Virus record (IMG/VR): IMGVR_UViG_3300020470_000105
Location: 1 to 33,358 of that record
Strand: one strand, 5' to 3'
Source: a virus
Length of the DNA: 33,358 nt
Shown here: positions 7,528 to 33,358 of the stretch, piece by piece
Position numbering within the stretch: the stretch's first letter is position 1
How the letters are laid out: the number at the start of each line of letters is the position of its first letter
Program-made: the position numbers and the translations under genes
The notes under the pieces: generated by a model
The model's database searches: none
What the model was told of the DNA's origin: nothing
Seen by the model: the letters and a program-made list of their open reading frames with translations, nothing else

Positions 7528-7946
7528 TGGCACTAAAGCAAATAACTGGAGAAGACCTTAAGAGTTCTAGATCTTTTAAGGATATTGGTATGGCATTTAG
7601 TAGAAATGCTTCTACCGATGATGTTGGTGTCGTTAAGAACGATAATGCAATTAAACAAGCACTCAGAAATTTAATTCTAACTACTCCTGGAGAAAAACCA
7701 TTTGATCTTTTGGTTGGATGTAGGGTTCGAGAGATGTTATTTGAACCTTTAGATCCTTTTGTTGCTGACGCAATTCGAGATGAGATCATAAATACAATAG
7801 GTCAATTTGAACCTAGAGTACAACTTGTTGATGTAGCAGTCCAAGCATTTCCTGACGGAAATAAATTAGCAGTTACTGTTGAATATCAGATTGTTGGTAT
7901 ACCAATAGTAGAAACAGTTAACTTCATTTTACAGAGACCAACCTAA
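7527..7946 (+). CDS. 25: Baseplate wedge protein gp25
   Basis: This gene encodes 139 residues, close to T4 gp25 (132). Hallmarks are 'AIKQALRNLILTTPGEKPF' (41-59), the 'EP(L)DPF' turn and the conserved 'FEPRVQL' (94-100), the EPR core motif of the gp25/T6SS TssE family. In T4, gp25 sits in the inner baseplate, clamps gp6-gp53 and helps nucleate the sheath. The lysozyme-like name of the family does not imply activity. The start overlaps the SET gene stop by one base, and gp6 follows after one base, matching the T4 gene order 25-6. Confidence 0.93.
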   Translation: MALKQITGEDLKSSRSFKDIGMAFSRNASTDDVGVVKNDNAIKQALRNLILTTPGEKPFDLLVGCRVREMLFEPLDPFVADAIRDEIINTIGQFEPRVQLVDVAVQAFPDGNKLAVTVEYQIVGIPIVETVNFILQRPT

Positions 7947-7947
7947 A

Positions 7948-9975: not shown

Positions 9976-9980
9976 GTTAG

Positions 9981-12900
9981 ATGACGAATATCAATAAGGT
10001 CTCTCAAGCGATTGAATCGCAGACTCCACAGTTCATCGGGGATGATTACCCGATGTTTAATAAGTTCATTCAATATTATTATGCATCTCAGGAGAAGACT
10101 GGACTAGGGCAAAATATAATCAACAATTTCCTCCAATATCTTGATATTGATAAACTAGATATTGGAATTCTTGATGGTGCCACTAAAGTTGTAGAAGAGG
10201 TAAAGGTTACAGATGAGACGATTGTTGTAGAGAATGTTGATAGTTTTTTAGAAGAGAATGGTTCAGTTTTAATTGGTGATGAGGTAATTTATTATGAAAA
10301 GACTACTCATGCACCTAATATTGCTCTAAGTCCAGGTATTTCATATGAGCAAGTTAAATTAAAGTTTACAGGTCTTGCTAGTCCTATTAATGACTTTGAT
10401 GATACGACTAAAAGGTTTGCTCTTAAATCTCAGAATAATCCTATTGCTCCTATTTCAGCACAACATTTAATTGTTAGTGTTTATGGTAAAGTTTTTATAC
10501 CTGGAGTTGATTATACTGTAGATGGTACAGATATAGTATTTACAACTGCTCCTAGAACTAAAACTCCATCAGATGATGCTAGTTCAACATATATCACATT
10601 TTTAAGTGGTTTTATTGAAAATAATATTGTAGAGATTGATAATTTATCTAATAGTTTTGGTGAAGGTAAGAGACAATTTGCTGTTACTAGAAATGGTTCG
10701 ACATATGAACCAGTAGCAGAAGAATATATTATTGCGGTCTATGATAATCGTTTACTTACTCCAAAAGTAGATTTTTGGGTTGATGGTAACTATTTCATCT
10801 TTAAAGATGCTCCATTAAACGGTAGATATCTGTCTTTGTATGTTATTGAGGCAGCAATACCTTCATTTGGATCTGGTGCTGTAGGATATGCTCGTGTTAG
10901 TGATACTGGTACTTTAACAGGTATTTCTACAAGTGTTAATGGAACTGGATATAGATTTGAATATCCTCCTAAAGTTTCTGTTAGTTCTGAGGTAGGTAGT
11001 GGTGGTGCTGCGACTGCATTAGTTAATGGTGTTAAAAGTGTTTCCTTACTTGATGGTGGTAAAGGATATAGTTCAACTAATCCACCAGTTGTTCAAGTTC
11101 AAACTCCAACAAAAACAGGATCTACTGCAGCAACTGTTAAAGCAACCGTTACTAATGGTTCCATTACTGGTCTAGAAATCACTAATTCTGGTAGTGGGTA
11201 TACATTCACACCTAGACTTACTTTCAAGCAGCCTGGAGGTGCTAAACTAGGCACTCCAACTGTTACTAATGGTCAGATTACAGGTACTATCCCTATAACT
11301 GATGTTGGATTTGGATATACTACAGTCCCAGAGGTTTATATTGATGAACCTACAGGTACAAACCCAATTAAAGCAGCTTTAAGAGCAAATTTAACGAATG
11401 GTGAAGTTACAAGTATTAGTATATTAAATGCTGGTCAAGGATATACATCTGTTCCTAGAATTGCTATTGTTGACCCTGTTGGTGCTCAAGTTTTAGAGAC
11501 ACAAGTTGATGGTGATGGTCGTGTCATTAATATCGATCTTTTAAGTGGTGGTACTGGGTATGATGATGTTCCATCTGTTTATATTGTTGATAATAGAGTA
11601 GATGGGCAAGGAAATTATGCTGGTGGTACTGGTGCTACTGCTACTGCATCAATTTTTAATGGAAAGATTATTGATATCAATATTGGTTCCTTTGGAACTG
11701 GATATAGTTCATCTAATCCTCCTCAGATTGTAATTCAAAGTCCCCCTGCAGCAAAAGCATCTGCTGAGATTGGTTTGAATGAAGTTACTGGTTTTACAGT
11801 AAATCAGACAGGTACTGGATATCAAAAAGCATCATTTACAGGATGTGCTAGAGCAGCAAGTGGTATTGTCAAATATACTGAAAATGGTAATGCAGTATTC
11901 TCAAATGATACTATAGCAGCAACAGCAGCAGTAAATACTGCTGTTAAATGCTTAGATGCTCTTTTTGTTAAGAGATTACTTGATAAGTACACAGAACAGT
12001 TTTTACCAGATGTTCCTGAACTAGATTATAAGAAAATTGATGTTCGTAACTCTATTAAGACTATTAAGGATTTTTATACTGCAAAAGGCACATCTTTCAG
12101 TATTGCGTACCTATTTAAACTATTATATGGTGAAACTGTAAGTATTTCATATCCAAAAGATCAGATTATCAAACCTTCTGATGCTACATGGTCTATTGAC
12201 ACTATTCTTCGTGCTACATTAGTTAGTGGTAGTGCAACAAACATTAAAGATGCTTTATTAGTACAAGAAGAAGATATTGCAGACTCTAATGTAAAAGCAG
12301 CGAGTGCTTTAGTAGAAAACTATATTTCAATTAAAACATCTGAAGTAGAGATTTTTGAACTTGTATTGTCTGAAGAGACAATTACTGGTTCATTTACAGT
12401 TCCTTATAAGACTAGACTTGCTGAACCTTTATCTACAACTGATGGTATTATTACAGTTGACTCTACAATTGGTTGGCCAGAAAGGAATGGAGAGTTTATT
12501 ATTGGTTCTGGTGCTGGAGCAGAAGTTGTTCAGTATAAAGAAAAATCACTTAACCAGTTTATTGAATGTACTCGTTCTGTAAATGGTGTTGTTGAAGATT
12601 GGGATGCTGCTACTTCAGTAGCATCAAACTTTAAAGTTTACCTTAATAAGGGTACTGCACAAGAAGTTGTGATGAATATTGTTGGTATTGTTGATGCTCA
12701 ACAAACAACTTTGACAGATACTGGATCTTATTATCTACCTGGAGATAAATTAACTGTTTCTAAGTTAGGTGGTACAGGTGAAGGATCAGAATTGAAAACT
12801 TGGTTATATAACGTTAAAAAATTAATTTCAGTTACAAGTATCACCTATGGTGGTGTTAATGATCAGTCTGCTACGGTTACTTGTGCTAATCCTCATGGAT

Positions 12901-15900
12901 TGTTAGTTGGAGATCAGGTTACCATTTATGGTGCTAACCCAATCATCTATAACGGAACCTTCTTAGTTACATCTAGGGATGGTGATAATATTTTCCAATA
13001 TAATCTACCTCAACCTGCTACTGTTGTTCCACAAGGTAATATTCTTGTATCTATTGACCTTAATAAAGGTAAATCTGATAATTCTGCAGTTCTAAATGCT
13101 ATTGGTCCTTATACTACCAATGTACAAAATACTTTCTTTAATGATAATTACACTTATGTTGCTGCCACGGGTATCCCCAACTATAAGATCGGACCTTTTC
13201 CAGGATCAGCACTTCTTCCAGGAAACCAACGTAAATTAAATAGATTTCCTAAAGTACCTACTACAATATCTACAAAAAACCTTATTAATCCTGGTCCTGT
13301 TGGTACTTGGGTTAATGGTGTATCTATTTGGTCATATAAGTCAAAAACAACTAAAACATTCGGTGCAGTAACAGGTATTGCTATTAATAATGCTGGTTCT
13401 GGATATGATGCTGCTTCACCTCCAACTATCACTATTTCTGGTGGTGGAGGATCAGGTGCAACAGCTAATGTAACTGTTAATGGTTCTATCTCTGAAATCA
13501 CAGTCACTGACGGGGGTTCTGGGTATACATCTTCACCATTGGTCTCTATTGTTGGTGGTGGAGGAGCTGGAGCTGCTGCAACTGCTATTATCACTAAAGG
13601 TGTTGTTTCACGTATTTTGATTAATGCTGGTGGTTCTGGATATACTTCACAACCTTCTATTACTATTGTAGGTGGTGGCGGATCTGGAGCAACAGGAACA
13701 GCATCTGTTAGAGGTCCAATTGGTGCAATTACTGTTGATTCTGGTGGTACTTCTTACACATCTACTCCTTCTGTATCTTTAAGTTCTGGTTCTGGTGCTG
13801 TAGCACAAGCAATTGTTAATAATGGTAGAATTATATCTATCGCTATTATTTCTGCTGGTTCTGGATATACTACTGCACCCGAAGTTGGTATTCAGGGTGT
13901 TGGTTTCGGTGCTATTGCAAGAGCAACAATTGATACTGATGGTGAAAATGCTGGTAGGGTTACTGGTATTACCATTATTAATAGAGGTATTAACTACGTT
14001 CAGGGTACTACACTTGTTAATTTGACTTCTGTTGGTCAAGACGCAACATTTACACCATCAGTTTTCCAATGGACTTATAACTTACAAGCAACATCAACAC
14101 TTGATACTGCTAAGGGTGGTGTATTTGAAGGATATAATAATGAATATGGTGGTGAGTATGCTCACCTTTCAAATCCTCAAAGAATGAGGTATATTCTTGG
14201 AGATAATCTATTTGAGCAAACTGCAGGAATTATTAAAGAGCAAGATGAGCAATTAGGGCATTCTCCTATTATTGGTTGGGCATTTGATGGTAATCCAGTT
14301 TATGGACCTTATGGATTTACTGATCCAACAGATCAAACATCAAATGTTGTTAGACTTGGTACTTCATATAGATTAAAGACTAATCTTGTATATGATGCTC
14401 AAACTAATCCATATCCAGTTAGAACTTCTGGACCTTTATTGAATGAAGAAGTTGCTGGTAATTTTGTAGAAGATTATGAATATGTTTTCGGATTAGGTGA
14501 TTTAGATCAATATAATGGTCGTTTTTGTAAGACACCAGATTTCCCAGATGGTAGATATTGTTATTTTGTAACTATTGATGCTACTGAAGATGGTAATCCA
14601 GTTTTCCCATATGTTTTAGGTCCAAGTTTCAACTCTGTTGTAGATACTTGGAACTTGAGTGCTGATGCTGTACAGCAAAATATTCCTTCTGGTGTTGTAC
14701 GTTATAGAGATCCTTATGAGAATGTTGATATTGATGTTGAGAGGGTTCCAAATGCCTCTACAAACGCTCTAACTACTGAAGATGGGCAAATACTCCTATT
14801 TGAGGTAGAAGACGAAAATAGGGACGGTATAATTGATTCTGATGAGACTGCTAATCCAAGACAAATTTACGAAGAAGCACCTCTACAACTCTTTGATTAT
14901 TTCCCTAAAGTTAAGTTTGACTCCAAAGTTGATATTGAAGTTGAAACAACAACTAAATTTGAAGATGCATCTGTAACTGGATTTACAGTTGAGAACCCAG
15001 GTAAAAATTATCAGGTTAATGACCGTTTAGTATTTGATAATACAGATACTGATGGTTCTGGTGTTTCTGCTGCAATTTCTCGTATTAAGGGTGAATCAGT
15101 TGCTTCATATACATTTGAAAATATTGCAGGAAAGAATTATGGTGTATTAAAAACTACTGTACCTCATAATTTGATTACTGGTGATAGTGTGTTTGTTTCT
15201 TATACACCTATCATGCAAAATACGAACAAAACGTTTGTTGTTCGTCAATTTAGAGGTATTGAAGAAATTGTTATAGATCAGAAAGGATCTGGTTATAATG
15301 AAGAAATACCACCATCAATTCTTATTGACGGTGTTGGTACTCAAGGTCAGTTACAAGCAGTTGTTACTACTGTAGGTTCTATTGATACTGTTAATATCAT
15401 CAATTCTGGATCTGGTTATACATCTAATCCTAGAGTTATATTGAGTCATCCTCAGATATTCAAGAAAGCAGATTATTACGTTTCTAAGATTACTAATAAT
15501 AATTACGTTAAAGTTAATGATATTTTTGTTAATGATAGTAAGGAAGTATTTACTTGTGGTAAGACAAAGGATGCTTCAGGTAATGTAGTTGCATTTGTTG
15601 CTAAATTGTCTGCTACTGGTGTTAAAGAGTGGCAAAAAACACTAGAAAGTGCTTCTGGTGCAAATTATGCTGAATTTGAAAAAATCTATGTAGATGGTAA
15701 TAGTATTTGGGTAGTTGGTAATAATAGACCAAATAGTGCTTTACTTGATGCATATAATCCTGATATTATACTTTGTAAGTATACTCAGGCATCTAATGGT
15801 CTTAGTGCAACATTAAACTTCCAGAAAGCATATGCTGGTATTTCTGGTTCTACTCGTGCAGATAATGTAACTGCACTTGCCAAGTATTCTGATACTCGTT

Positions 15901-24900: not shown

Positions 24901-27900
24901 AATATCCAAGAGCAAGTGGTGAAAATGGTACTGCTGGAGGAGCAGATAATAATACAGGAACTCCTGATCCAGCATATGATACTTCAGTTTATATTACTGC
25001 AGTAACTGGAACAACAATTACAGTTAATGTAGGAACTTCGTCTGATACTACTGCACATACCTTTGTTGCTGCTACAGATTTAACACCTACTAATGGTGCA
25101 TACAACCCAACTACGGGTGTTATGACTTTGACTGCTAATGGTCATGGAATGAAGAATGGTGATTATGTTAAGATTGCTGATGGTGCTGTAACCTTTAGTT
25201 GTGCCTTTGGTGGTGCATCAGGTTCTTCTGCACAAAAGGCATATCCAAGATCAACCGATCCAATTAGCGGTAAGTGGGTTATAATTTCAGGTGTAACTAC
25301 TAACACATTTGATGTTCAAGTTTTAGCATCTGCTCCTTCTACAAATACCGATACTCATACTTGGGTTTCTGGTGTTGCTAATAGTATTCAAAGAGCAGTA
25401 GTTCAAGGTGGTGGTAATTATACACACATCTTTAAATATGCTAAACCTAATAGTGTTACCTATCAAAAGCATGGATTCTCTAATGGTGAGAGAGTAAGAA
25501 TTGTTGATGATTCTCTAACATTTACATGCCTTAAAGATAATAATATAACATATCATTCTTATCCTCGTGCTGGAACTGATCCTTTCTCTGGTAGATTATT
25601 AGACATTTCAAATGTAACTGATACTACTTTTGAGGTTAATGTTGGAGTCTCTCCTGATACATCTACACATACATTTAAATCAGCAGCTCCTGGTGGATTA
25701 ATTCATAAAGATAATACAGTTACTATAGATGTAGGTAAAGCACCTTTACAAGGATATGATATATCTAATGCGACATATGATCCTTCAAATGGTAATCTTG
25801 TACTTACAGTTGGTACTCATAACTTAACTGCAGGTGAAGGTGTTAAACTTCTAAATGAAGCAGTTACATTTACTTGTGATCAAGATAGTGATGTATCAGA
25901 GCATTCATATCCAAGAACAACTATTGATACTCATACAGCAGGTAGTGGTACTGGATATAACCCTGCTACAGGTGTATTGACTATTGTTACTACATCTGCT
26001 CATGGAATGCAGACTGGAGATTGGGTTAAATTTGCTGACAACTCGTTAACATTTACTTGCTCTAAAGATGGTGGATCTACTGAACATCAGTATCCAAGAT
26101 CTACTGATCCAGTTAGCGGTCAATGGATTCAAGCAACTGTAACTAATACAACTACATTTACAGTAGATGTATTGCAAGGTACAATATCTACACAACAACA
26201 TACTCATACATGGGTATCAGCAACTACTGATGGCATTAGTCAGAAACGTGATTTGTCTTATGATCAGACAATAGCAATTGCTTCTGTTGGTAGTACTAAT
26301 AAAACCGCATCTGGTGCAACATATAATCCTACAACTGGTGTATTAACAATCACTTCTAACGGTCATGGAATAAGTGGTGCTACTGAGCATACAACAACTG
26401 CTGCAACATATGCTCCTAAGACAGGAAAATTAACTTTAACTATTGCTTCTCATGGATTTAATAATGGAGATAGAATAAGAGTTAAAGCAAATTCATTAAC
26501 ATTTAGATGTGCTAAAGATGATTATGCAACTGTTCATACATATCCTCGTGCAACTGATCCAGTAAGTAATAAGTGGTTGACTATATCTGGAGTAACAACT
26601 AATACTTTTGATGTTAATGTTGGTTTATCTCAAGATATTTCTACTCACGAATTCATATCTGCTACTAGTAATGGAATTGAAAGAGCAGTAGGATCAGTTA
26701 AATTGGACGCTGATTCATTATCATTCACTTGTACTATGGATGGTAATAGTCAGACTAAGACATATCCAAGATCTACTGATCCAGTTAGTCAACAATGGGT
26801 TCCCATTACAAATAGTCAAACAAATACATTTGATATTTTTGTTGGTACAACTTCATTCGGTAACTTTGCTCATACTTATGTTACTGCTTCATCCAACGGT
26901 ATTAAGGTTCAAGATGGAACTATTACTTTAAATGTTGGAACTTCTTCCAATACAACTACTCATGCATTTGTAAGGGCAAAAACTGCTGCTTTAAGAACAG
27001 GTGGTCTTTATACACATACATTTGTTCCAACATCTGCTATGACAGTAACAGATGGTGCATATAACCCAACTACAGGTGTTATGACCTTAACTGTTGCTGG
27101 TCATGGAATGGAAGATGGTGATGTAGTTAAGATGGCAGATGGATCTATAGTCTTTAGTTGCGGTTTCGGTGGTGCTTCTGGTACTGCTGCACAGAAAGCA
27201 TATCCAAGATCTACTGACCCTGCGAGTGGTAAGTGGATGGTAATCTCTGGTGTAACCAATAATACATTTGATGTTCAGGTTTTAGATAATGCTCCTTCCA
27301 CCAATACTGATGCACATACATTCGTATCTGCTACTGCTAATGGTGTTACTAGAGGTGTTCTTCAGACTGGTGGTAATTATACACATGCCTTTAGATCTGC
27401 TGTAGCAAATGGTATTAAGAAGCAAGGAAAAGCAATTTCCTTTATTCCTGATGGATTAACATTCACATGTGGTCTTGATGGTGGTTCTACAACTCACACA
27501 TATCCTCGTAAGACTGATCCTGCTTATAATGCTGCTTTAGAAATTACTAAGTATGATACCAATACATTTACAGTAAATGTTGGTAAATCTCTTGCTGATA
27601 CTATCAATACTCCATATACACCAACTACTGCAACTTATAATCCTTCAACTGGTGATTTAGTTCTTAAGATTCCTGGACATTCTTTAACAACATCTGATAA
27701 AGTAACAATTGATAGTGAGTCTTTAGGATTTACATGTACGATGGATAATGGACAATCTACTAAGTTCTATCCTCGTTCTGGTCATGATACACGTGCTGCT
27801 GATAGACCTCTTACTATTACTGCAGTTTCTGCACAGGGTACTCCTGATGCTGATAAGACAATTACAATTAATGTCGGTGCTGCTCAAGCAAACGCACAGT

Positions 27901-30900
27901 TCACTCCTTCTGCAGCAACTTATGATGCAGAGACTGGAGATATGACATTAACTATTGGTCAACATGGTATTCGTGTTGGATCAAATATTACTATTGCAGA
28001 TAATGGATTAACTTTCAACTGCACAATGGATGGAGGATCTTCTAATAAGACATATCCTCGTGCAGCTGATCCTTATGGTGGACTTAAGTCTATCCCTGTT
28101 ACTCATGTAGGACATAACCATCATACTATAGAAGGTGCATCATATACACCTGCTACAGGTGTGATGCAATTCACAATTACTGGTCATGGATTCTCTAATG
28201 GAGATTATGTTCAGATTGTTGATGGATCTCTTACTATGAGATGTGGACTAGATGGTAATACCACAGATCATGCATATCCTCGTGCTGGATATGACTTCCC
28301 AAGTGGCAGATGGTTAATTGTTTCTAACGTTGCAACTAATACTTTTGAAGTTAATGTTGGTATATCTCAAGATACTTCTACTCATGTATTCAAAGCTGCA
28401 GCTACTAAAGGTCTTCGTAGACAAACTGGTGTAATTACAGTTAATGTTGGTGCTTCACCAATTAAGGGATATGATGTTTCTGCTGCTACATATGATCCTG
28501 CAACAGGTGTTTTAGTTCTAACTATTGGTAATCATAATCTTACAGTAGGTACGAGTGTAAGAATTGCGAATAATTCATTAGTATTCAAGTGTGCTCAAAA
28601 CTCATCTGTAACAAAGACATATCCTCGTGCTAATGGTCAAGATGGTGCAACTGCTGATGATCCAGCATATAACGATGCTGTTGCTATTACTGCAGTAACT
28701 GGTAATACAATTACTTTAAATGTTGGTACATCTTCTAATACTACTGCACATACTTTCCAAAACGCTAATAACACATATCAACCAACTGCAGTTGCTTATA
28801 ATCCAACTACAGGTGTTATGACTATTACTATTGCTGGTCATGGATTTGTTAATGGAGAGCATATTAAAATTACTGATAATTCACTTACATTTACATGTGC
28901 TAAGGATGTTAATGCAACTCAACACACATATCCTCGTGTAACCGATCCTGTAAGTGGTAAGTGGTTGGTAATCTCTGGTGTAACTACAGACACATTTAAT
29001 GTTCAAGTTTTGGATTCTGTTCCTTCAACTAACGTTAGTGCTCATGCATTCGTAAGTGCAACAACTGATGCAATTAAGAGATCAGTTATAAGCACAGGTG
29101 GTGATTATGCACATACATTCGTAACTGCTGCTTCTAATTGTGTATCATATAAACCACAAGAGGCACATACATTTGTAAGTGCTGGATATGGTTGTGTTAG
29201 GTTGATCCGTAATACTCACACATTTGGAACTCCAACAGCAAATTCTATCATAGTCTTAGATTATAAAACTAATGATTGTATAGATGTACAAACAACTTGT
29301 GAGAATCTAATTAATATCCTTACTGATACTTTATCTGCTGCTAATGCTGCTACTCCTACAGATCATCTAGGAAGTCTTACTAAGATTGCTCCTGCACATG
29401 GATTCCTTGGTGGTCAAGTTGCTAGTTATAGGGAAGTTCCTTTCCCAATTTCTTATCATGATAGTGCTAATGATATAATCTATACGACTCAAATTGATGC
29501 TGATACACAGTATAGATTCCGTGATGCTGCTAATTTAATTCGTAAGAATGCTGGTCCTATTGTAGATAAGGCATCTGCTGATATGCTTCTTAGATATCCA
29601 GATCTTGTTTTGGATATGCCAAGAAACCAAGGTGGTGTAAGTACTAATGGTACTTTACAATGTAAGACTGACCTATCCCTACTTCTTGAAGAATTCTGTA
29701 AGGATATTGAAAATGGTGGCAATTTCCATACTGTTAATGTTTCTAAGTTCTATCTTGGTGTAAATGACGTATTATTACACATAAGATTACAGGTATTCCA
29801 GTCTGTTTATGCTCATGAACGTCTTGCATATTACATGAAGCAAGCAATCACTGGAGATCTTGTAGCTGGTTCTACCGATGATGTTATTATTAGTGATTGG
29901 GGTATTACAAATGATGCTGGTGGATGTGCAAACGTTAAGACTGCTATCGATACTTTAATCACTACACTTAATGATATTATTGCTCCAACTGATAATGACT
30001 TTAAGATTGCTGCTGATAGACTTTATTTCAACAGAAAATGGGTATCAGAAGAGGCTACTGGTGCAACAACTAATGAATTTACATATAACTTAGGTGGTAC
30101 AGATTATCAAGCATTTACTTATCCTACTCAATCAGGCGGTGGTCAGGGTGGATCTGGTGAGGTTGTTTGTCAGAGAGACCTTAGATTTATCATAGAAGGT
30201 ATTATTTCCGACTTACAAACAGGTGGTAATAATAGTACTATTACTGCTATGAATAACTATCTTACTGCTACTAAACAAATTAGTTCAGTAGAGAAAGAAC
30301 TTCTACCAACAACATGGGCAATAGAACATATTAAGTTCTTAGCTAGTAAAGCAATCCAAAACCTTGCTTATTCTAGTACTGAATCTGTTACTGGTCAGCA
30401 GTATCAGGCACAATATACCACAACACCTGCTTGGAGGGATTCTGAAAATCCTACAACCATTAGTAATGTAGTTACTAGGATGGAGCAATTAGTTGATATT
30501 GCTGTTGATATGCTTGCTCCTGGAAGTCTAGTATCCAGAAAGGCTGGTAAGAACATTCTTTATAATGCAAATTACTATAAAGAAGAGATAACAACTGTTG
30601 TTAATGCACAATTTGGTTCTGGATCTTGGGTTTATAATGACTTTGTTGATGATATCATCATTAATAATTTACATGATTTGGTTACAACTGATGTTACTGA
30701 TAAAACTTTAGGATATGAAATTACACTTTCTAGTGTAGTTCTTAACTTTAAAGTTGGTGAGCAAGTAAATTCTAGTGGTGGTGGATATGCAACTGTTCTT
30801 GAATTTAATGAAGAGAATAATTTCTTTGTTGTTGGTCCATTTACAGGAACTGCATGGAAAGGTGGAGATACTTTAGAAGGAACTACATCTGGTGCTGTAG

Positions 30901-33358
30901 CAACTATTGCTCAACAAGGAGTTGCTTCTCCTTATGATTGGTATAATGCTCCTGGAAATGTTAGAACTCTTGGTCAAGCAAGATTAATAACTTCTAATAT
31001 TGCTGGAGAAACTTCTGGTGTTAACCTCTATTCTAATCCAGAGGCATTTGAAATTAATTGGGTTGGTACAGAATCAAATATTTTAGCAGATTCTTTAGTA
31101 GCACCTGATGGTACACTTACTGCTGAAAAACTTACATCTACTGCAGTAAATGGTGAGCACACAATTCATCGTAATTATAACTTAAGTGCATATGATACCT
31201 TTGATGATGGTACTATCAAATGGGATACTACTAATCAAAGATTTGACGAAGGTTTCAGCGATATTGATGATAATGATCAGCAGTTTACTTTCTCAGCATT
31301 TGTTAAGAAAGGAGTTTATAAAGCAGTTCGTTTCATGATTGCTCTTGATGAAGGAACAGCAGCAGTTCAAAGAGCATTCTTTGATCTTAATTTAGATGAT
31401 GGTACTACTGGTTCTTGGTTTAATCCTCAGAATGGTGTTACTGTTGATGATTTTGGTGCAGTTCCATATGGAGATGGTTGGTATAGAGCATATCTTACAA
31501 TTACATTCTCCTTCGGTTTTGCTGAATTGAGATCACAAATTTATATTAAGAATGCTACTGCTTCACAAACTTATGCAGGTAATGGAACTGATGGTTTATA
31601 TGTTTGGGGTGCAAAACTTAATAGAAACCTTTTAGATCCATATACTTCTGGAGATAATAAGATATTCTATGCTAACTCTGAATACAACATTAAGAGTTAT
31701 GCTATGAATCTTTTAGAAGATTATATTGATAAGGCTCTTACTGATTCACTAACAACTCCTGCTCCTAATTCTGGATTTATTAAGTATTTTGATAGTACTG
31801 CTGCAAGTTACTATGATAAGAAATCTATAATGAGAGTGCTACGTGCGAATCTTAATATAATACGTGAGCAACAAAAAATTGATAGTCATTACACAACTAT
31901 TACCACAAATAATGGTATAACAGTTCCTGCTATGACTTATGGAACTAGAGATCCTATTGCTGGTGTTGGTGGTGGATTACAGGATGCTGATTATCTATAT
32001 GGTATTTTAAGTGGTAGTTATGCTGAACTTGAAAAACTATCTGTTAATGAAGGAAAAGTTGTCCAAATCTTTAAGAGATTCAGAATAGATGGTGATATTA
32101 CTGATGGTCCATTCACTATGAATGAGGCAGTTCAGAAGCAAGGTGATGCTGGAATTACTGGTGTTGTTTATGGATTCCATAGTGATGCAAACTACAAATA
32201 CTTAGATGTTAGAGTTACTGCTGGTACTTGGCAAATTACAGATACCATTCAGGGTGCAGAAAATACAACACTTGCTCAGATTAGTGCTATCGAAGATAGA
32301 TTACATATTATCGATCTTAAGGGAGATTTTTCTGATAATATTCCATTCAAGGGATATACAAGTAGTGCTACTGCAACTCCTACAGGATTCTTAAAAACTG
32401 AAGCATCTATACTTGATAATTCAGGTGGTAAATTGACAGTTGATACCGCAACACTTAACGGTACATTTGAAACATCTTCTGTTGTTTATCCTTCAGCATC
32501 TAGACAATATCTAGAAGTTACTAAGACTGCAGGTCTTGATATTGCTGTTGGTGATAGAATTGCTTCGACTGGACACATACGTTTAGGAATTACTATTCTA
32601 TTAGGTTTAAATGAATTTGTACAAGGTGGAATAATCTATAGAGTTAGCGGTAATATTAATGATCAAGGATCTAATGATCTAACAACATACGCAACTATTA
32701 CTGAAGTAGATCTTGCGGGTGGTTTCATCTATTGTGTAATGGGTTCAGGAACCTTTAGTTTAGGTGAGCAGATAGGTTATTATGGTGCTAATACTACTCC
32801 ATCAGGATATGCATCAATTGCAACTAAGGTTACTAATGCTGGTGCAGGTGCAGCACTTGTACAAGATATACGTACAGTAGGTGTTAATCAAAGATTGTTC
32901 CTTTCTAATATTTCAGGAACATTTAATGCAAGAGACGGTATTACTGGTCCTGATAATTATGCTGCTGCAGGATTAAAATTAGTTAATCTTAAGGCACGTG
33001 TTAAGAGAGCATTTAGAGGATTTGATGGAGTTCAAACTAACTTCAGTCTAACGATTGATAATGGTACTTCATACCTTCCAGATCCTGCTGGACACCTCTT
33101 AGTATTTGTTAATGGTATTCTACAACCTCCAGGTGCTTCTAACGCATATACAGCGTTCTCTAACACTATTCAGTTTACTGAGGCACCAGATCTAGGTGCA
33201 TCATTCACAGGATTCTACGTAGGTAAGTTGAGACAGTTGGATGATATTTCCTTCGAGTTCGACTCTTTACGTCAGTCATTCAACCTCAAGCGTAATGATG
33301 TATTCTACTCACTAACTTTAACAGAAGGTGTTCAATCCTCTGTTATCAGACCTGAAAA
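9981..33358 (+). CDS. Giant modular virion protein, at least 7,792 residues (3' end outside window)
   Basis: One frame stays open from ATG 9981, 5 bases after the gp6 stop, to the window edge. I read nearly all of it and found no stop; all 19 repeat cysteines between 22.99 and 28.90 kb fall in this frame. The start 'MTNINKVSQAIESQTPQFIG' and a later 'IKTIKDFYTAKG' segment resemble the N-terminal module of large structural proteins found after gp6 in marine T4-like phages. Modules in order: adhesin-type NG..PG units, GSGY repeats, split helical module, more GSGY repeats, YHYH domain, beta-propeller, LamG-like fold, GSGY repeats, QDFSY segment, second LamG-like fold, 19-unit Cys repeat array flanked by helical DAANLI modules, carbohydrate-binding-like module, further NG..PG units. 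No enzyme signature or membrane helix was found. It occupies the T4 gp7 locus; a baseplate-anchored host-binding fibre is inferred. Codons end mostly in T. Confidence 0.9.
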   Translation, partial: MTNINKVSQAIESQTPQFIGDDYPMFNKFIQYYYASQEKTGLGQNIINNFLQYLDIDKLDIGILDGATKVVEEVKVTDETIVVENVDSFLEENGSVLIGDEVIYYEKTTHAPNIALSPGISYEQVKLKFTGLASPINDFDDTTKRFALKSQNNPIAPISAQHLIVSVYGKVFIPGVDYTVDGTDIVFTTAPRTKTPSDDASSTYITFLSGFIENNIVEIDNLSNSFGEGKRQFAVTRNGSTYEPVAEEYIIAVYDNRLLTPKVDFWVDGNYFIFKDAPLNGRYLSLYVIEAAIPSFGSGAVGYARVSDTGTLTGISTSVNGTGYRFEYPPKVSVSSEVGSGGAATALVNGVKSVSLLDGGKGYSSTNPPVVQVQTPTKTGSTAATVKATVTNGSITGLEITNSGSGYTFTPRLTFKQPGGAKLGTPTVTNGQITGTIPITDVGFGYTTVPEVYIDEPTGTNPIKAALRANLTNGEVTSISILNAGQGYTSVPRIAIVDPVGAQVLETQVDGDGRVINIDLLSGGTGYDDVPSVYIVDNRVDGQGNYAGGTGATATASIFNGKIIDINIGSFGTGYSSSNPPQIVIQSPPAAKASAEIGLNEVTGFTVNQTGTGYQKASFTGCARAASGIVKYTENGNAVFSNDTIAATAAVNTAVKCLDALFVKRLLDKYTEQFLPDVPELDYKKIDVRNSIKTIKDFYTAKGTSFSIAYLFKLLYGETVSISYPKDQIIKPSDATWSIDTILRATLVSGSATNIKDALLVQEEDIADSNVKAASALVENYISIKTSEVEIFELVLSEETITGSFTVPYKTRLAEPLSTTDGIITVDSTIGWPERNGEFIIGSGAGAEVVQYKEKSLNQFIECTRSVNGVVEDWDAATSVASNFKVYLNKGTAQEVVMNIVGIVDAQQTTLTDTGSYYLPGDKLTVSKLGGTGEGSELKTWLYNVKKLISVTSITYGGVNDQSATVTCANPHGLLVGDQVTIYGANPIIYNGTFLVTSRDGDNIFQYNLPQPATVVPQGNILVSIDLNKGKSDNSAVLNAIGPYTTNVQNTFFNDNYTYVAATGIPNYKIGPFPGSALLPGNQRKLNRFPKVPTTISTKNLINPGPVGTWVNGVSIWSYKSKTTKTFGAVTGIAINNAGSGYDAASPPTITISGGGGSGATANVTVNGSISEITVTDGGSGYTSSPLVSIVGGGGAGAAATAIITKGVVSRILINAGGSGYTSQPSITIVGGGGSGATGTASVRGPIGAITVDSGGTSYTSTPSVSLSSGSGAVAQAIVNNGRIISIAIISAGSGYTTAPEVGIQGVGFGAIARATIDTDGENAGRVTGITIINRGINYVQGTTLVNLTSVGQDATFTPSVFQWTYNLQATSTLDTAKGGVFEGYNNEYGGEYAHLSNPQRMRYILGDNLFEQTAGIIKEQDEQLGHSPIIGWAFDGNPVYGPYGFTDPTDQTSNVVRLGTSYRLKTNLVYDAQTNPYPVRTSGPLLNEEVAGNFVEDYEYVFGLGDLDQYNGRFCKTPDFPDGRYCYFVTIDATEDGNPVFPYVLGPSFNSVVDTWNLSADAVQQNIPSGVVRYRDPYENVDIDVERVPNASTNALTTEDGQILLFEVEDENRDGIIDSDETANPRQIYEEAPLQLFDYFPKVKFDSKVDIEVETTTKFEDASVTGFTVENPGKNYQVNDRLVFDNTDTDGSGVSAAISRIKGESVASYTFENIAGKNYGVLKTTVPHNLITGDSVFVSYTPIMQNTNKTFVVRQFRGIEEIVIDQKGSGYNEEIPPSILIDGVGTQGQLQAVVTTVGSIDTVNIINSGSGYTSNPRVILSHPQIFKKADYYVSKITNNNYVKVNDIFVNDSKEVFTCGKTKDASGNVVAFVAKLSATGVKEWQKTLESASGANYAEFEKIYVDGNSIWVVGNNRPNSALLDAYNPDIILCKYTQASNGLSATLNFQKAYAGISGSTRADNVTALAKYSDTRYVIGGHTNTNSANPFDAFIASIDTSGNFSVKRKLASTAGSEKITDLLVNGTDIFFVMETAASSNATAVNVAIGKATLGTSVITVDWLKEISNTLYSFLDTSLAIDEFNELYVVSSLRIKSNNIDRDSFWIGKFASDGDLIWNYRYLAPGRDVVTADSCKIDIFGDLNLAFTRTNSTNQQKTVDTVKVGYDGKIKNHTTTDFTLKNIEGITVHAIDVDNSGDVHVFGQTNWNRNEFLFPFTNGSENTDTTGHYTLTSVGPTNAITYTDNYAKILGYNPAGSNSTWVNSYLQITAAQLGTKLGDDWTIEFFLYKSSTESQTLSQTQQTLLGIGGARDATGGLWLGYDIASGSLDLVITNSSTQLINGSGTSSSQTTMFANNSWQAIALTKVGNDFKVYVNGIQVIAGSISGTSLGSKDLYFGNQVGFGAGATDFNQAFQGQFYIDHLRLRNRGLVPTVPSDMVSLPPVATYALDYDWVDDAFFTTYNNRYDYIDYVGWGLKVDKNADASRLGTTALTTNTQVGWTRTAVTPTTGTALTISNVGYTLGEAGLQSLDFDDSTVTMSQDTETLTYANDIWSSRTATVPSPGSQKLKVSAVVRDRYYFKVTNTVKIDNIQELTINQAFNFTVGSKLVLKTDADAFVNSGYIIRKDNTNNKLYLAVNNNDWANDLDTGVLSTEQFSEQTAYKIVGPIPNDVNEIVAYTFAQVNNTTPGTFDIDLDDYNLDGTYNAGGGQNLDSFARFKPYADFDYSIRIDEVAGGSPYIVGSVVTIASGDISYNASYTTTQITNLTGVLKITLITNLKKRLQVSAVANSDEVYVITGTNHYLNKGEMVYVDGNPSQEVSGTVYDEYDGAFPVDTVVSPLEFTYKLPQAAVSTPSTTPATVNIFVKSPVLKMYYGHQYLFDLSHSSLVGGNLSFAKDNLYKLEYSFNSIERVGTPGITGQGVPTPSVKLKVDEDIVTNISYYFDPSRTGSTSPVIPGSYLDVVDSPYKGTFTISSTDGQTITTGPDIFKFLLQNEPEGNADVSRTTYSTSSEKAVGSISDIRIINPGGFYTKLPIVTDLVSTRQIERVQINDPGTEYAVGQYNAVPIGGNGEGGLVGITVADGTDDDGNTIPGQIQEVVVTSPGKGYTEATIDIEAIPGILGSGLTGSGAELVVVIPPFGTEASIFTKGDKVGKIKKLKNNNFGYDYPHDYTLRPEITFPINAQLTSTSILSSITVTNPGSGYATAPTVVITGGGGSGATAEATIKNGRIDGIIVKEPGAGYSSTPTIALRSAFNYVVNLDLGLLQFAYPHGIVNGSEVTVTVTDTGDGADFPLAAGATGRLNPTTTYYAISGAANSLEDDQLKLAITAQNAALGDGLTFVNAGTGRQTVLTESFGGAATANVITSTFLEGELVYQGDSLDVATATGYVSTNSGWQVGPRILKIVDYTGDFASGQRLTGVISKSSGIISDLKVARGVLEIGSITKTTGQFIDDVGKPSEIIQKIQDSYYYQDFSYAVKSAVSISDWKEILVKNVHPASFKVFGELNLNEYGLIPNKETFFELTKSVELAQEAIVPNIQNFALVEPIYSEFNNTEVLFRQKRLTSSENILTSVVQRLDDISNLFDGERISFPLTVDTNNVVANANQLMIILNGVVQNPGTSFTIQQDSIVFAEPPQPPASVKYANVTVSQINTVDFTFTNQSGIFPTMGQTLAGITSGAKLIVTTVVGDTISGYISEGTFVIGELCTVTATGFSATLATNTPVTNIGLFSFGENITNFTKDTAKVERINLATGQETPIAKLRYAVGSSTTAFEVVPYTGAEAPLPANTFVPTKQYQFGSEIFLVNTVTDGTESTTLGVTRGELGTQAVGQQEDTPVYGTDILVTDKLTLSKTAGTYQSTPGLFDIQLNDVIIGASSGVVARVTATSAYQDPVTNEFISQVNISEGSSFFGLLFNRITSQSYPNVVLDDISQSQVSIVDFTDNATAFDSSFPSNEQLNNYIIPFDNQVGTLVQDEFIRNYKVEYGNNVGEFVAGEDGKVRKLSFTGQTGSGFFNTGQRIRTLDTKAEVIGFNQARSIVYLGKIGRSKANGQDYHIISFNGQSQLDTAQKKFGTASLLLDGANDYLSIPTSTEFGFGTGAWTIEFYFRPTSVTGTQVLVDLRTTATELSPLIRTDGTGLEFHVNGSDVITGGTVAVDTWYHLAVSKSGSTTKMFLNGVQVGSDWSDSSNYGTTKPVNIGADYQALTAFNGHIDELRISNSARYTSAFTPVNGVHQGDANTKLLVHFDGVDAQVWTEDWSGTESFTAGEFFNNDAILETSRIAGAHIYNGGTATNAITITAGSVQKDVTAATYNPVTGSLELTIGSHSYTTSDTLKIAAGSLSFTCSKDNHTTSHTYPRTTDPAYDTTLAIVSVTSTTLTVNVGVAGDPKGFDGDSQRYYDAANLILDNKDYIAKEVVFLAEKKFPALAVPGGSVNCEDDVKDILDALVTDIRNGANEKMWDASALYVDRSDTNNVKLNHVETEITETIWVYDKVDQILEYIVTNSLWDTQGNHGLTQKTDTSITDSYNPAGVHTFVSGVTNAITPSVGSAVTAAAGTTYDGATGNLVIEIGSHSLTTSNTVTIADGGITFTCDADNHTTQHAYPRPTDPASGTALAITAETATTITVNVGVADRRKITPTGATYDAATGDLTITKASHGLIGPTSLTATGATYNAETGVLVLTSNGHGLINGDKVQLEDESLTFTCSMDQYRSEHKYPRSSDEASSGWLTVSNVQTNTFEVNVGKSPAIAFSPTTATYDGDSGHLVLDIGKHNLRAGTNVRIAKESLSFTCDMDGNYSTKKYPRVTDPVYGDTLPILYEGSRHTVTGASYTPTNGKMVITAGRQLSPTNAAFNPSTGMLTLTVPNHGIPANDKVKIIDDSLIFTCSMDDHSSEHSYPRSTDPKSDDWITVVNVTTNTFDVNVGATPLEHFKPSAATYNPATGDLVLTIGNHTLSVGEGIRLAEESLIFTCDYNSDGNSTQKKYPRASGENGTAGGADNNTGTPDPAYDTSVYITAVTGTTITVNVGTSSDTTAHTFVAATDLTPTNGAYNPTTGVMTLTANGHGMKNGDYVKIADGAVTFSCAFGGASGSSAQKAYPRSTDPISGKWVIISGVTTNTFDVQVLASAPSTNTDTHTWVSGVANSIQRAVVQGGGNYTHIFKYAKPNSVTYQKHGFSNGERVRIVDDSLTFTCLKDNNITYHSYPRAGTDPFSGRLLDISNVTDTTFEVNVGVSPDTSTHTFKSAAPGGLIHKDNTVTIDVGKAPLQGYDISNATYDPSNGNLVLTVGTHNLTAGEGVKLLNEAVTFTCDQDSDVSEHSYPRTTIDTHTAGSGTGYNPATGVLTIVTTSAHGMQTGDWVKFADNSLTFTCSKDGGSTEHQYPRSTDPVSGQWIQATVTNTTTFTVDVLQGTISTQQHTHTWVSATTDGISQKRDLSYDQTIAIASVGSTNKTASGATYNPTTGVLTITSNGHGISGATEHTTTAATYAPKTGKLTLTIASHGFNNGDRIRVKANSLTFRCAKDDYATVHTYPRATDPVSNKWLTISGVTTNTFDVNVGLSQDISTHEFISATSNGIERAVGSVKLDADSLSFTCTMDGNSQTKTYPRSTDPVSQQWVPITNSQTNTFDIFVGTTSFGNFAHTYVTASSNGIKVQDGTITLNVGTSSNTTTHAFVRAKTAALRTGGLYTHTFVPTSAMTVTDGAYNPTTGVMTLTVAGHGMEDGDVVKMADGSIVFSCGFGGASGTAAQKAYPRSTDPASGKWMVISGVTNNTFDVQVLDNAPSTNTDAHTFVSATANGVTRGVLQTGGNYTHAFRSAVANGIKKQGKAISFIPDGLTFTCGLDGGSTTHTYPRKTDPAYNAALEITKYDTNTFTVNVGKSLADTINTPYTPTTATYNPSTGDLVLKIPGHSLTTSDKVTIDSESLGFTCTMDNGQSTKFYPRSGHDTRAADRPLTITAVSAQGTPDADKTITINVGAAQANAQFTPSAATYDAETGDMTLTIGQHGIRVGSNITIADNGLTFNCTMDGGSSNKTYPRAADPYGGLKSIPVTHVGHNHHTIEGASYTPATGVMQFTITGHGFSNGDYVQIVDGSLTMRCGLDGNTTDHAYPRAGYDFPSGRWLIVSNVATNTFEVNVGISQDTSTHVFKAAATKGLRRQTGVITVNVGASPIKGYDVSAATYDPATGVLVLTIGNHNLTVGTSVRIANNSLVFKCAQNSSVTKTYPRANGQDGATADDPAYNDAVAITAVTGNTITLNVGTSSNTTAHTFQNANNTYQPTAVAYNPTTGVMTITIAGHGFVNGEHIKITDNSLTFTCAKDVNATQHTYPRVTDPVSGKWLVISGVTTDTFNVQVLDSVPSTNVSAHAFVSATTDAIKRSVISTGGDYAHTFVTAASNCVSYKPQEAHTFVSAGYGCVRLIRNTHTFGTPTANSIIVLDYKTNDCIDVQTTCENLINILTDTLSAANAATPTDHLGSLTKIAPAHGFLGGQVASYREVPFPISYHDSANDIIYTTQIDADTQYRFRDAANLIRKNAGPIVDKASADMLLRYPDLVLDMPRNQGGVSTNGTLQCKTDLSLLLEEFCKDIENGGNFHTVNVSKFYLGVNDVLLHIRLQVFQSVYAHERLAYYMKQAITGDLVAGSTDDVIISDWGITNDAGGCANVKTAIDTLITTLNDIIAPTDNDFKIAADRLYFNRKWVSEEATGATTNEFTYNLGGTDYQAFTYPTQSGGGQGGSGEVVCQRDLRFIIEGIISDLQTGGNNSTITAMNNYLTATKQISSVEKELLPTTWAIEHIKFLASKAIQNLAYSSTESVTGQQYQAQYTTTPAWRDSENPTTISNVVTRMEQLVDIAVDMLAPGSLVSRKAGKNILYNANYYKEEITTVVNAQFGSGSWVYNDFVDDIIINNLHDLVTTDVTDKTLGYEITLSSVVLNFKVGEQVNSSGGGYATVLEFNEENNFFVVGPFTGTAWKGGDTLEGTTSGAVATIAQQGVASPYDWYNAPGNVRTLGQARLITSNIAGETSGVNLYSNPEAFEINWVGTESNILADSLVAPDGTLTAEKLTSTAVNGEHTIHRNYNLSAYDTFDDGTIKWDTTNQRFDEGFSDIDDNDQQFTFSAFVKKGVYKAVRFMIALDEGTAAVQRAFFDLNLDDGTTGSWFNPQNGVTVDDFGAVPYGDGWYRAYLTITFSFGFAELRSQIYIKNATASQTYAGNGTDGLYVWGAKLNRNLLDPYTSGDNKIFYANSEYNIKSYAMNLLEDYIDKALTDSLTTPAPNSGFIKYFDSTAASYYDKKSIMRVLRANLNIIREQQKIDSHYTTITTNNGITVPAMTYGTRDPIAGVGGGLQDADYLYGILSGSYAELEKLSVNEGKVVQIFKRFRIDGDITDGPFTMNEAVQKQGDAGITGVVYGFHSDANYKYLDVRVTAGTWQITDTIQGAENTTLAQISAIEDRLHIIDLKGDFSDNIPFKGYTSSATATPTGFLKTEASILDNSGGKLTVDTATLNGTFETSSVVYPSASRQYLEVTKTAGLDIAVGDRIASTGHIRLGITILLGLNEFVQGGIIYRVSGNINDQGSNDLTTYATITEVDLAGGFIYCVMGSGTFSLGEQIGYYGANTTPSGYASIATKVTNAGAGAALVQDIRTVGVNQRLFLSNISGTFNARDGITGPDNYAAAGLKLVNLKARVKRAFRGFDGVQTNFSLTIDNGTSYLPDPAGHLLVFVNGILQPPGASNAYTAFSNTIQFTEAPDLGASFTGFYVGKLRQLDDISFEFDSLRQSFNLKRNDVFYSLTLTEGVQSSVIRPE
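10400..10860 (+). repeat. NG..PG adhesin-type module, copies A and B (in the giant protein)
   Basis: Two ~75-residue units follow each other. Each has 'F-x-hydrophobic' at the start, then 'LIVSVYGKVFIPGVDYTVDG' or 'YIIAVYDNRLLTPKVDFWVD', then 'IVFTTAPR' or 'FIFKDAPLNG'. Further copies lie at about 20690-20910 and 33010-33225, and the first part of another at the window edge. This beta-sandwich pattern is frequent in phage tail and fibre proteins. Confidence 0.7.
10905..11850 (+). repeat. GSGY beta-repeat cluster 1 (in the giant protein, residues ~309-623)
   Basis: Eight units carry G-x-G-Y followed by 'SxxP-x-V-x-I': NGTGYRFEYPPKVSV, GGKGYSSTNPPVV, SGSGYTFTPRLTF, VGFGYTTVPEVYI, AGQGYTSVPRIAI, GGTGYDDVPSVYI, FGTGYSSSNPPQI and TGTGYQKASF. 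Units are about 40 residues long with 'A-x-A-x-V-x-NGxI' strands between them, suggesting a repetitive beta solenoid or sandwich string. The cluster splits the N-terminal helical module. Confidence 0.8.
11940..12195 (+). other. Second half of the N-terminal helical module (in the giant protein)
   Basis: Residues ~654-738 contain 'LFVKRLLDKYTEQFLPDVPE', 'IRN/VRNSIKTIKDFYTAKGT', 'AYLFKLLYGETVSISYPKD' and 'IIKPSDATW'. I recall the same order (helix, 'IKDFYxxKGTExSxxFLFxLLYGE', 'YPxxxILKxSDGxW') near the N-terminus of structural proteins in marine myoviruses. Here it is separated from its expected partner (residues 1-60) by about 600 residues of beta modules. Confidence 0.65.
13350..14030 (+). 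repeat. GSGY beta-repeat cluster 2 (in the giant protein)
   Basis: Six units: AGSGYDAASPPTITI, GGSGYTSSPLVSI, GGSGYTSQPSITI, GGTSYTSTPSVSL, AGSGYTTAPEVGI and a divergent RGINYVQGTTLVNL. Most are followed by 'GGGGSGA-x-A-x-A' glycine runs. The units are more alike than in cluster 1, so this cluster may have expanded more recently. Looser copies occur at about 15000-15450 and 19040-19720. Confidence 0.8.
14238..14643 (+). other. YHYH-type domain (in the giant protein, residues ~1420-1555)
   Basis: The segment 'GHSPIIGWAFDGNPVYGPYG' (from 14256) is the core signature of the YHYH protein domain (Pfam PF14240). It is followed by the expected second half, 'QYNGRFCKTPDFPDGRYCYF' then 'NPVFPYVLGPSF'. 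The YHYH tetrad that names the family is not intact here (nearest is YAHL before the core). The domain occurs in many marine secreted proteins; its function is unsettled. Confidence 0.75.
15522..16620 (+). other. Predicted beta-propeller domain (in the giant protein, residues ~1848-2213)
   Basis: Five to seven blades of the pattern 'hydrophobic, polar turn, D-x-x-G/N, a-F-V-x-K-h-x-x-x-G-x-h-x-W-x-K' can be read: 'FVAKLSATGVKEWQKTL', 'SIWVVGNNRP', 'YVIGGHTNTNSANPFDAFIA', 'FWIGKFASDGDLIWNYRYL' and 'DVHVFGQTNWN'. This resembles SBBP/PQQ-like propellers, which often bind ligands or proteins. No catalytic residues are suggested. Confidence 0.65.
16743..17256 (+). other. LamG/concanavalin-like domain 1 (in the giant protein)
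   Basis: Residues ~2255-2425 carry the usual order for a LamG-like jelly roll: 'LGDDWTIEFFLYKS', 'LLGIGG', 'GGLWLGYDIASGSLDLVI', 'NNSWQAIALTKVGNDFKVYV', 'NGIQVIAG' and 'GQFYIDHLRLRNRGL'. This fold commonly binds polysaccharide. A second copy is at 22170-22695. Confidence 0.8.
19040..19720 (+). repeat. GSGY-type repeats, cluster 4 (in the giant protein)
   Basis: Degenerate units NPGGFYTKLP, DPGTEYAVGQY and SPGKGYTEATIDI are followed by two good units, NPGSGYATAPTVVI and EPGAGYSSTPTIAL, with 'GGGGSGATAEATIKNG' between them. Here the first position prefers Pro-Gly rather than Gly-Gly, as in the repeat of the 805-residue protein ('NPGTGY'). Confidence 0.65.
20340..20475 (+). other. Conserved 'YYYQDFSY' segment (in the giant protein)
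   Basis: The sequence 'IIQKIQDSYYYQDFSYAVKS' followed by 'SISDWKEILVKNVHPASFKV' and 'FGELN' matches a segment I recall from large structural proteins of marine T4-like phages (IQDSxYYQDFSYxVKS...W...vHPAGF). It is helical and lies just before copy C of the NG..PG module. Confidence 0.55.
20690..20910 (+). repeat. NG..PG adhesin-type module, copy C (in the giant protein)
   Basis: 'RLDDISNLFDGERISFPLTV' opens the unit, followed by 'QLMIILNGVVQNPGTSFTIQ' and 'IVFAEPPQPP'. It is clearly homologous to the unit near 33010-33225 and to the truncated unit that ends the window ('QLDDISFEFDSLRQSFNL'). Confidence 0.75.
22170..22695 (+). other. LamG/concanavalin-like domain 2 (in the giant protein)
   Basis: Residues ~4064-4239 show a textbook LamG-like jelly roll: 'SLLLDGANDYLSIPTSTEF', 'GTGAWTIEFYFRP', 'DTWYHLAVSKSGSTTKMFLN', 'GVQVGSDWSDSSNYG', 'VNIGADYQ', 'FNGHIDELRISNSARYT' and 'LLVHFDG'. 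It is better preserved than domain 1. The likely role is carbohydrate binding on the host surface. Confidence 0.85.
22800..29190 (+). repeat. About 19-copy Cys/His/YPR repeat array (in the giant protein)
   Basis: The core unit reads about 'S-L-x-F-T-C-x-x-D-x-x-x-x-x-H-x-Y-P-R-x-x-D-P', followed by 'TTNTFxVNVG'. A complete unit also begins with 'ATYNPTTGxLTLTxxxHGhxxGDxVxI' and ends with 'THTFVSAxxNGI', about 100 residues. The Cys codons begin at 22989, 23730, 24072, 24327, 24609, 24864, 25200, 25527, 25875, 26058, 26508, 26730, 27159, 27468, 27735, 28020, 28242, 28590 and 28896, all in one frame. Spacing is 183-741 bases because many units lack the leading or trailing part. The units are diverged rather than identical, so this is an old or strongly selected array. 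One helical DAANLI insert lies between units 1 and 2. Confidence 0.85.
23145..23480 (+). other. Helical DAANLI module, copy 1 (in the giant protein)
   Basis: 'YYDAANLILDNKDYIAKEVV' is followed by 'CEDDVKDILDALVTDIRNGA' and a long helix. Related segments at about 29500-29760 ('RFRDAANLIRKNAGPIVDKA', 'CKTDLSLLLEEFCKDIENGG') and 30165-30380 ('CQRDLRFIIEGIISDLQTGG') share the Cys-x-x-D and 'D-I/L-x-x-G-x-N' spacing. I recall the same pattern in other cyanophage tail proteins. Confidence 0.65.
29500..30380 (+). other. Helical DAANLI module, copies 2 and 3 (in the giant protein)
   Basis: Copy 2 begins 'RFRDAANLIRKNAGPIVDKA' with 'CKTDLSLLLEEFCKDIENGG' after it, and is followed by 'VFQSVYAHERLAYYMKQAIT'. 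A partial copy 3 has 'CQRDLRFIIEGIISDLQTGG'. The helical block closes the Cys repeat array and may form a stalk or trimerisation region; that role is inferred. Confidence 0.6.
31068..31640 (+). other. Carbohydrate-binding-like module (in the giant protein, residues ~7030-7220)
   Basis: The module holds 'GTLTAEKLTSTAVNGEHTIH', 'FTFSAFVKKGVYKAVRFMIA', 'FFDLNLDDGTTGSW', 'GDGWYRAYLTITFSF' and finally 'GTDGLYVWGAKLNRN'. This order (ending in '(Y/L)-x-WGAxLx') is that of a common phage tail module related to CBM-type jelly rolls. It would be a third sugar-binding candidate, near the far end of the visible protein. Confidence 0.7.
33010..33358 (+). repeat. NG..PG adhesin-type module, copy D, and start of copy E (in the giant protein)
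   Basis: Copy D reads 'AFRGFDGVQTNFSLTIDNG', 'LLVFVNGILQPPGASNAYTA' and 'IQFTEAPDLGASFTGFYVG'. Copy E starts 'LRQLDDISFEFDSLRQSFNL' and is cut by the window edge. The repeating order shows the protein does not end soon after 33358. Confidence 0.75.

Follow-up and report, generated by a model that had tools for sequence, protein, structure and literature searches.

Downstream of gp6, where T4 carries gp7, the DNA analysed here holds a reading frame of more than 23 kb. T4 gp7 has 1,032 residues, in line with the roughly 1,030 quoted in the first-pass annotation of this locus. This raises the questions whether the frame is an intact gene, whether its product is a gp7 at all and what fills its length. 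The window, as we call the whole stretch analysed, is the complete IMG/VR record IMGVR_UViG_3300020470_000105 of 33,358 bases. We consider it about 85% probable that the frame belongs to a T4-like marine cyanophage (Kyanoviridae) and encodes its gp7-family wedge protein, in which a wedge core is joined to a projecting adhesion chain.

Integrity, full length and relatives of the frame

In the ORF listing the frame (9981..33356, plus strand) starts with ATG and is still open at the 3' edge after 7,792 codons. Because the window is the complete record, this open end is merely the contig edge. Neither a stop nor an N occurs in any of the 7,792 codons within 9981..33356, the remaining five frames contain 381-1,176 stops each, and from base composition a stop-free run of this length has a chance probability of about 10^-258. 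G+C by codon position is uniform along the entire frame at about 0.48/0.43/0.14, with ranges of 0.44-0.52, 0.38-0.52 and 0.10-0.17 at positions 1, 2 and 3, respectively.

A sibling scaffold, IMGVR_UViG_3300030333_004016, shares about 99% nucleotide identity with the window and is collinear with it over 4924-24212, 24390-31567 and 31560-33358. It contains two 10-N joins, one of which lies inside the repeat array described below and conceals 177 bases. The sibling also supplies the stop that the first-pass annotation had proposed to look for beyond 33358: it lies 188 codons past the window edge and is followed by a gp9-like gene and a gene for a 1,441-residue wedge protein. Since the sibling adds 188 residues before its stop, the full-length protein would comprise 7,980 residues and about 851 kDa. 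In agreement with this, three named relatives continue for 189-191 residues past the point that corresponds to the end of the window. Between window and sibling, pN/pS is 0.11 for the first 4,744 codons and 0.18 for 24390-31567, with a stop in neither stretch, and the frame is under purifying selection in this comparison. Overall, the frame (9981..33358, plus strand) is genuine and intact and encodes a giant baseplate protein. The ORF list, the coding signature and the sibling all agree with the earlier description of a stop-free frame of more than 23.3 kb and at least 7,792 codons that is still open at the edge; the product mass, put above 0.8 MDa, is 831.9 kDa for the visible part and rises to about 851.5 kDa once the 188 residues from the sibling are added.

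Such genes are already known in many marine cyanobacterial viruses and have been annotated for years in P-SSM4, P-SSM7 and S-SM1. Judged by profile comparison, the protein belongs to the cyanomyovirus giant gp7 family phrog_701: each of its thirds matches the profile, in order, and the matches reach position 5946 of 6136. Relatives in the same slot include P-SSM4 gp7 (PSSM4_080, 7,312 residues), P-SSM7_090 (7,124), P-RSM4_106 (6,603), S-IOM18 (6,387) and SSM1_102 of S-SM1 (6,180). The proteins of P-SSM4, S-SM1 and P-SSM7 follow gp6 as in the window and are collinear with the window's protein end to end; at least the first ~4,600 residues are 56-70% identical, and the C-terminal end is the same. 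In tblastn searches of phage records, the first 1,000 residues matched 478 records and the last 992 matched 298. Eighteen further IMG/VR contigs were examined, and each carries both ends in a single uninterrupted frame, 6,158-8,396 codons long. Some relatives, with up to 8,396 codons, exceed the window's protein in length, and a size exceptional among phage structural proteins, as initially proposed, can no longer be claimed given these relatives and the 7,312 residues of P-SSM4 gp7. Among single-chain virion proteins of marine cyanophages, giant gp7 probably ranks with the largest, and it is common. The labels of the family vary by record (P-SSM4, S-SM1, S-RIM50 KU594605 and others) between gp7, baseplate wedge initiator, YadA-domain, structural and hypothetical protein, and phrog_701 itself is labelled head and packaging. 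In some deposits (OQ319120, i.e. S-BM1, and P-RSM1) an arbitrary record start splits the gene, and annotated lengths can be too short because of such permuted records.

Members of the family are found in virions. SSM1_102 carries the tag T4-GC969, and this S-SM1 orthologue was found with multiple peptides in purified virions by mass spectrometry (PMC3037559). S-CREM2 gp122, a homologue of 1,937 residues in the same slot, was represented by 91 unique virion peptides with 27% coverage (PMC10665884). The S-SM1 peptides come without positions along the protein and would, like the very large, modular product, suit a polyprotein-like scheme in which the giant is made whole and then cut into several virion proteins, some of them separate fibres. 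We regard such processing as unlikely, given that family scans of the giant found no protease domain and that a single frame held both ends in 18 of 18 contigs.

Relationship to the T4 gp7 wedge core

BLASTP detects no similarity between the giant and T4 gp7, and profiles alone reveal the relationship. A family profile of residues 600-1000, for which P-SSM2-type proteins were among the relatives used, found T4 gp7 at 68-75 bits among 25 T4-type gp7 sequences, a small database in which bits outweigh E-values. Searched against the whole PDB, a profile of residues 1-1000 retrieved only two gp7 proteins, those of T4 and one other phage (E 1.4e-5 and 3.6e-5), and HMM-HMM comparison gave 96% probability over T4 gp7 727-812. 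The corresponding wedge-core motif, DFYTAKGTSFSIAYLFKLLYGE, occupies residues 690-780 (12048..12320, plus strand). The detectable homology is short, about 30-90 residues; only positions 731-758 of phrog_964, the narrow T4-type gp7 family of ~1,030 residues, match the giant, and profile comparison detected no counterpart of the N-terminal 640 residues of T4 gp7. Assignment to phrog_964 proper was rejected, as a full-length match including residues 1-640 was not found.

A putative bridge extends the likeness towards the N-terminus. Residues 5-56 of the giant match positions 3-54 of phrog_26741, and T4 gp7 664-759 in turn aligns with phrog_26741 positions 24-116. By this bridge, the N-terminal helices (residues 5-56; 9993..10148, plus strand) would be equivalent to the helical domain of T4 gp7 (~643-694), and the giant would begin near T4 gp7 residue 640, with the N-terminal domains of T4 missing. 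A direct profile comparison of these helices with T4 gp7 gave no significant match. Helices and core are separated by ~500 residues in the window's clade and by no gap in P-SSM2-type proteins, which lack this insertion; it holds a first block of 'GSGYxxxP' beta-modules (residues ~320-600; 10938..11780, plus strand).

The modelled region of residues 737-904 (12189..12692, plus strand) aligns to domain V of T4 gp7, in a register that agrees with the sequence motif, with modest Z values below 8 (6.8 over 85 residues for 5iv5_BJ and 5.8 over 79 residues for 5hx2_A). This alignment directly follows the sequence match, and the Z values are not decisive by themselves. The underlying model of residues 1-1000 is of middling confidence (pLDDT 73.9, pTM 0.51), Foldseek searches with the whole model returned mostly low-probability matches, and we found no structure for any giant gp7. 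Taken together, the profile evidence argues for homology to the T4-type gp7 wedge core. In T4 gp7 (1,032 residues, PDB 5iv5 and 5hx2) the core motif lies at 727-812, domain V may be shared and the gene order relative to gp6 is alike, whereas the long extension of the giant is absent. T4 gp7 is a wedge monomer present in six copies per tail (PMC3004832).

Gene order points the same way. Upstream on the plus strand lie genes for a baseplate wedge subunit of 805 residues (phrog_719, 2604..5021), a PAAR-type spike tip protein (5025..5564), gp25 (7527..7946) and gp6 (7948..9975). Relatives share the order gp25-gp6-giant-gp9-wedge-gp8-VrlC, the start of which is also seen in the sibling: gp25 and gp6 are found upstream in the window, the gp9-like and wedge genes in the sibling, and gp8 in relatives only. 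With this order and the wedge-core homology, the placement of the frame in the gp7 position of a T4-like phage holds.

The same neighbourhood contains genes of other kinds. A heme oxygenase gene (5720-6406; PF01126, E 7.5e-69), whose product would make biliverdin, lies among the baseplate genes between the PAAR gene and gp25, and a similar gene is present in 20 of 86 related loci scanned. The gene at 6603-7220 matches two PHROGs labelled 'ferrochelatase' but seems closer by sequence to a 2OG-Fe(II) oxygenase; P-SSM7 has a gene of this type at the corresponding place. Between it and gp25, a protein of 94 residues resembles SET domains (7243-7527; PF00856, E 9e-10), as in 14 of the 86 related loci. 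At the C-terminus of the downstream gp9-like protein (L086 2396-3616), GGAHPF ... YYQCTLHAAMQG looks by eye like a cupredoxin pattern and might represent a type 1 copper site.

Most of the giant resembles a fibre, and the records of some members name them tail fibre or YadA-domain protein, which could suggest a fibre or adhesin that merely occupies the slot while the true gp7 is encoded elsewhere. This is very unlikely: the core motif sits in the giant itself, and the same slot is filled in S-CREM2 by gp122, a virion protein whose fibre extension is small. Both S-CREM2 gp122 (1,937 residues) and P-SSM2 gp7 (5,195 residues) have N-terminal helices and a gp7 core homologous to those of the giant. 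P-SSM2 gp7 also has YPR repeats, as in the window, and S-CREM2 gp122 lacks most of the C-terminal chain.

A modular chain scaled by repeats

Downstream of the core, the chain consists mostly of beta modules, all on the plus strand. A YHYH domain (PF14240, E 7.7e-32) spans residues 1356-1534 (14046..14582), and the stretch of residues ~1,880-2,150 appears beta-propeller-like as judged by eye from the translation. A weak laminin-G-like module (16986..17216, E 0.019) stays under the Pfam cut-off, and a Laminin_G_3 or concanavalin-A-like lectin-type module (PF13385, E 1e-21) covers residues 4072-4214 (22194..22622). About 20 divergent repeats of ~90 residues with the pattern 'FTC..D...H.YPR.TDP', here called YPR repeats, occupy residues 4300-6352 (22878..29036). 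Towards the C-terminus, residues 7010-7065 (31008..31175) resemble the head-spike fibre Rcc01080 of the Rhodobacter gene transfer agent (GTA; E 1.8e-8).

Within the family, the length of giant gp7 is set by the number of repeats. In 15 full-length members, protein length correlates with the count of the YPR pattern (0-21) at r = 0.97 and ~121 residues per unit; counted by profile, relatives hold 0-25 domains. S-SM1 is collinear with the giant up to residue ~4,624 and again from 6,229, and the repeat array makes the difference. The window has more YPR repeats than P-SSM4, S-SM1 or P-SSM7, and the longest relatives surpass it in length, with 8,359-8,396 codons and, by profile, 23-25 repeat domains. 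With a mean identity of 39% in the window's array, the units are old. Many pair best with units of the same order in another phage, and the repeats at 5088 and 5741 (78% identity) are a more recent copy. A misjoined or expanded assembly, which the repetitive array and the sibling's 10-N join within it might suggest, was rejected and is scarcely credible, as the sibling is collinear across the array (24390-31567, 98.6% identity), the repeats are divergent without any tandem array found by TRF in the window, 18 other contigs carry both ends in one frame and pN/pS is 0.11-0.18.

The fold of the YPR repeat was modelled weakly (pTM 0.37), Foldseek gave no match at E <= 0.001, and the repeats have a weak match to carbonic anhydrase (E 0.018). 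Their conserved Cys, Asp and His (FTCxxDxxxTxHxYPR, 22878-29036) could bind metal.

The intact frame, the gp7 homology, the modular make-up and the length polymorphism are combined in the following model. At the N-terminus, a short wedge core would attach to gp6 in the manner of T4. Beyond it, a presumably extended chain of several thousand residues, mostly beta modules, would carry the YHYH, propeller-like and 'GSGY' elements, two laminin-G/lectin-like modules, the ~20 YPR repeats, three phycobiliprotein-like modules and the GTA-spike-like stretch. Most likely this chain extends outward from the rim of the baseplate and serves as an integral receptor-binding appendage, in which the YPR array may act as a length-adjustable spacer. 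By analogy with T4, six copies per baseplate are expected. The lectin-like modules and the spike-fibre likeness suggest a combined baseplate and adhesion role.

The first-pass annotation had seen a baseplate-type N-terminus followed by adhesion modules. The wedge core and the lectin-type modules bear this out, but residues 1-640 of T4 gp7 are undetected. Since these residues were not found, the giant is better described as a gp7 wedge core extended by new modules, some of them inserted and others appended, than as 'T4 gp7 plus fibres'. It had further been suggested that the protein unites baseplate and fibre functions. In two giant-bearing records (G016, 179 kb, and G020), gp11 (PF08677) was not found and only the first ~42 positions of gp10 (phrog_958) matched; a T4-like control has both. 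On the other hand, a gp9-type protein is still present in both records, as are gp8 and further wedge proteins in relatives. The lack of a recognisable gp11 and of a full gp10 lends the suggestion indirect support. The pattern fits, and does not prove, that the giant may have taken over peripheral functions.

Phycobiliprotein-like modules and their distribution

Three helical stretches on the plus strand attracted attention through a weak match to the Pfam Phycobilisome family (PF00502, cut-off 22.2 bits). Module 1 spans residues 4388-4499 (23142..23477) with Cys4427, module 2 residues 6510-6627 (29508..29861) with Cys6561, each with an Asp at +3, and module 3 residues 6672-6797 (29994..30371) with a C-Q-R-D motif at Cys6730. 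All three thus show the C-x-x-D pattern of a bilin-attaching Cys and its neighbouring Asp. Module 2 does not reach the cut-off (15.9 bits, E 0.013); the homologous module of S-RSM4 does (24.1 bits, E 3.9e-5). PF00502 is matched by five of 11 module members (best E 2.2e-4), and the P-HM2 modules do not match it. Among giants, the Cys is kept in 73/73 modules of type 1, 62/76 of type 2 and 44/71 of type 3, the latter two values implying that the bilin-type Cys can be lost, and the Arg of the motif is kept in module 3 only.

Profile searches connect these modules from both sides to phycobiliproteins, with which the host harvests light. A module profile from four phages matched 98 PDB sequences at E <= 10 (best 6.5e-4), and the best 60 of these 98 were all phycobiliproteins or bilin-type fluorescent proteins. 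In the reverse search, 56 of the best 60 matches fell in the module, i.e. in 2.2% of residues; individually these E-values are weak, and the counts are not independent because the phage ORFs are interrelated. HMM-HMM comparison gave 90% probability, and in a single-sequence search the S-PM2 module matched phycoerythrin alpha at E 1.4e-3. We discarded an earlier profile iteration that mixed phage and cyanobacterial loci and preferred a phage-only model, which yielded 83 matches, 81 of them with the motif C-x-[RKA]-D (2,549 ORFs, 80 cyanobacterial loci). Residues 38-104 of phycocyanin and phycoerythrin alpha align with the modules, including bilin Cys84 and Asp87, at 33-36% identity to the S-PM2 module over ~65 residues. 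All sequences of the aligned set share an Asn, the bilin Cys and its Asp, and the S-PM2/S-RSM4-type motif K-C-[EKR]-R-D-[IL]-G-[YFH] mirrors K-C-A-R-D-I-G-Y of phycocyanin alpha. The phage modules measure 100-125 residues, lie inside a virion protein and resemble about half of a phycobiliprotein. That they are real phycobiliprotein homologues is well supported by these comparisons. Their presence in giant gp7 appears to be what is new here: searches of an open-access library that lacks most subscription papers turned up, with the terms used, neither a description of such modules in virion proteins nor a discussion of giant cyanophage genes.

At BLAST sensitivity the module is restricted to cyanophages. 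Two module queries matched 309 and 361 phage records, all named Synechococcus, Prochlorococcus or cyanophage except one named 'Marine'. No module was found at E 0.01 in T4, HTVC008M, phiM12 or P-SSP7, nor in P-SSM2 and S-CREM2, which differ in this from the window. S-PM2 and P-HM2 carry the module and P-SSP7 does not, a contrast confounded by P-SSP7 being a podovirus. Light-dependent adsorption has been reported for S-PM2 and P-HM2, and S-PM2 is said to have been the subject of a study of this trait by Jia et al. in 2010. The modules of giant gp7 and of the S-PM2, S-RSM4 and P-HM2 tail proteins, some of which would have a near-canonical K-C-x-R-D-[ILT] pocket motif, could be derived from phycobiliproteins, bind bilins in the virion and act as light sensors that gate adsorption. 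We consider this full reading improbable, and bilin binding and light sensing by the modules are speculative.

In conclusion, the gp7 identity of a known kind of gene has now been tested and its length explained, and a wedge core with a repeat-scaled adhesion chain offers a testable model of host reach without recognisable T4 gp10 and gp11. If the light-sensor reading were true, it would provide a molecular basis for the light-dependent adsorption of S-PM2 and P-HM2. If the modules are homologues and bind bilins, cyanophage adsorption would be tied to light, an unexplained trait of several cyanomyoviruses.
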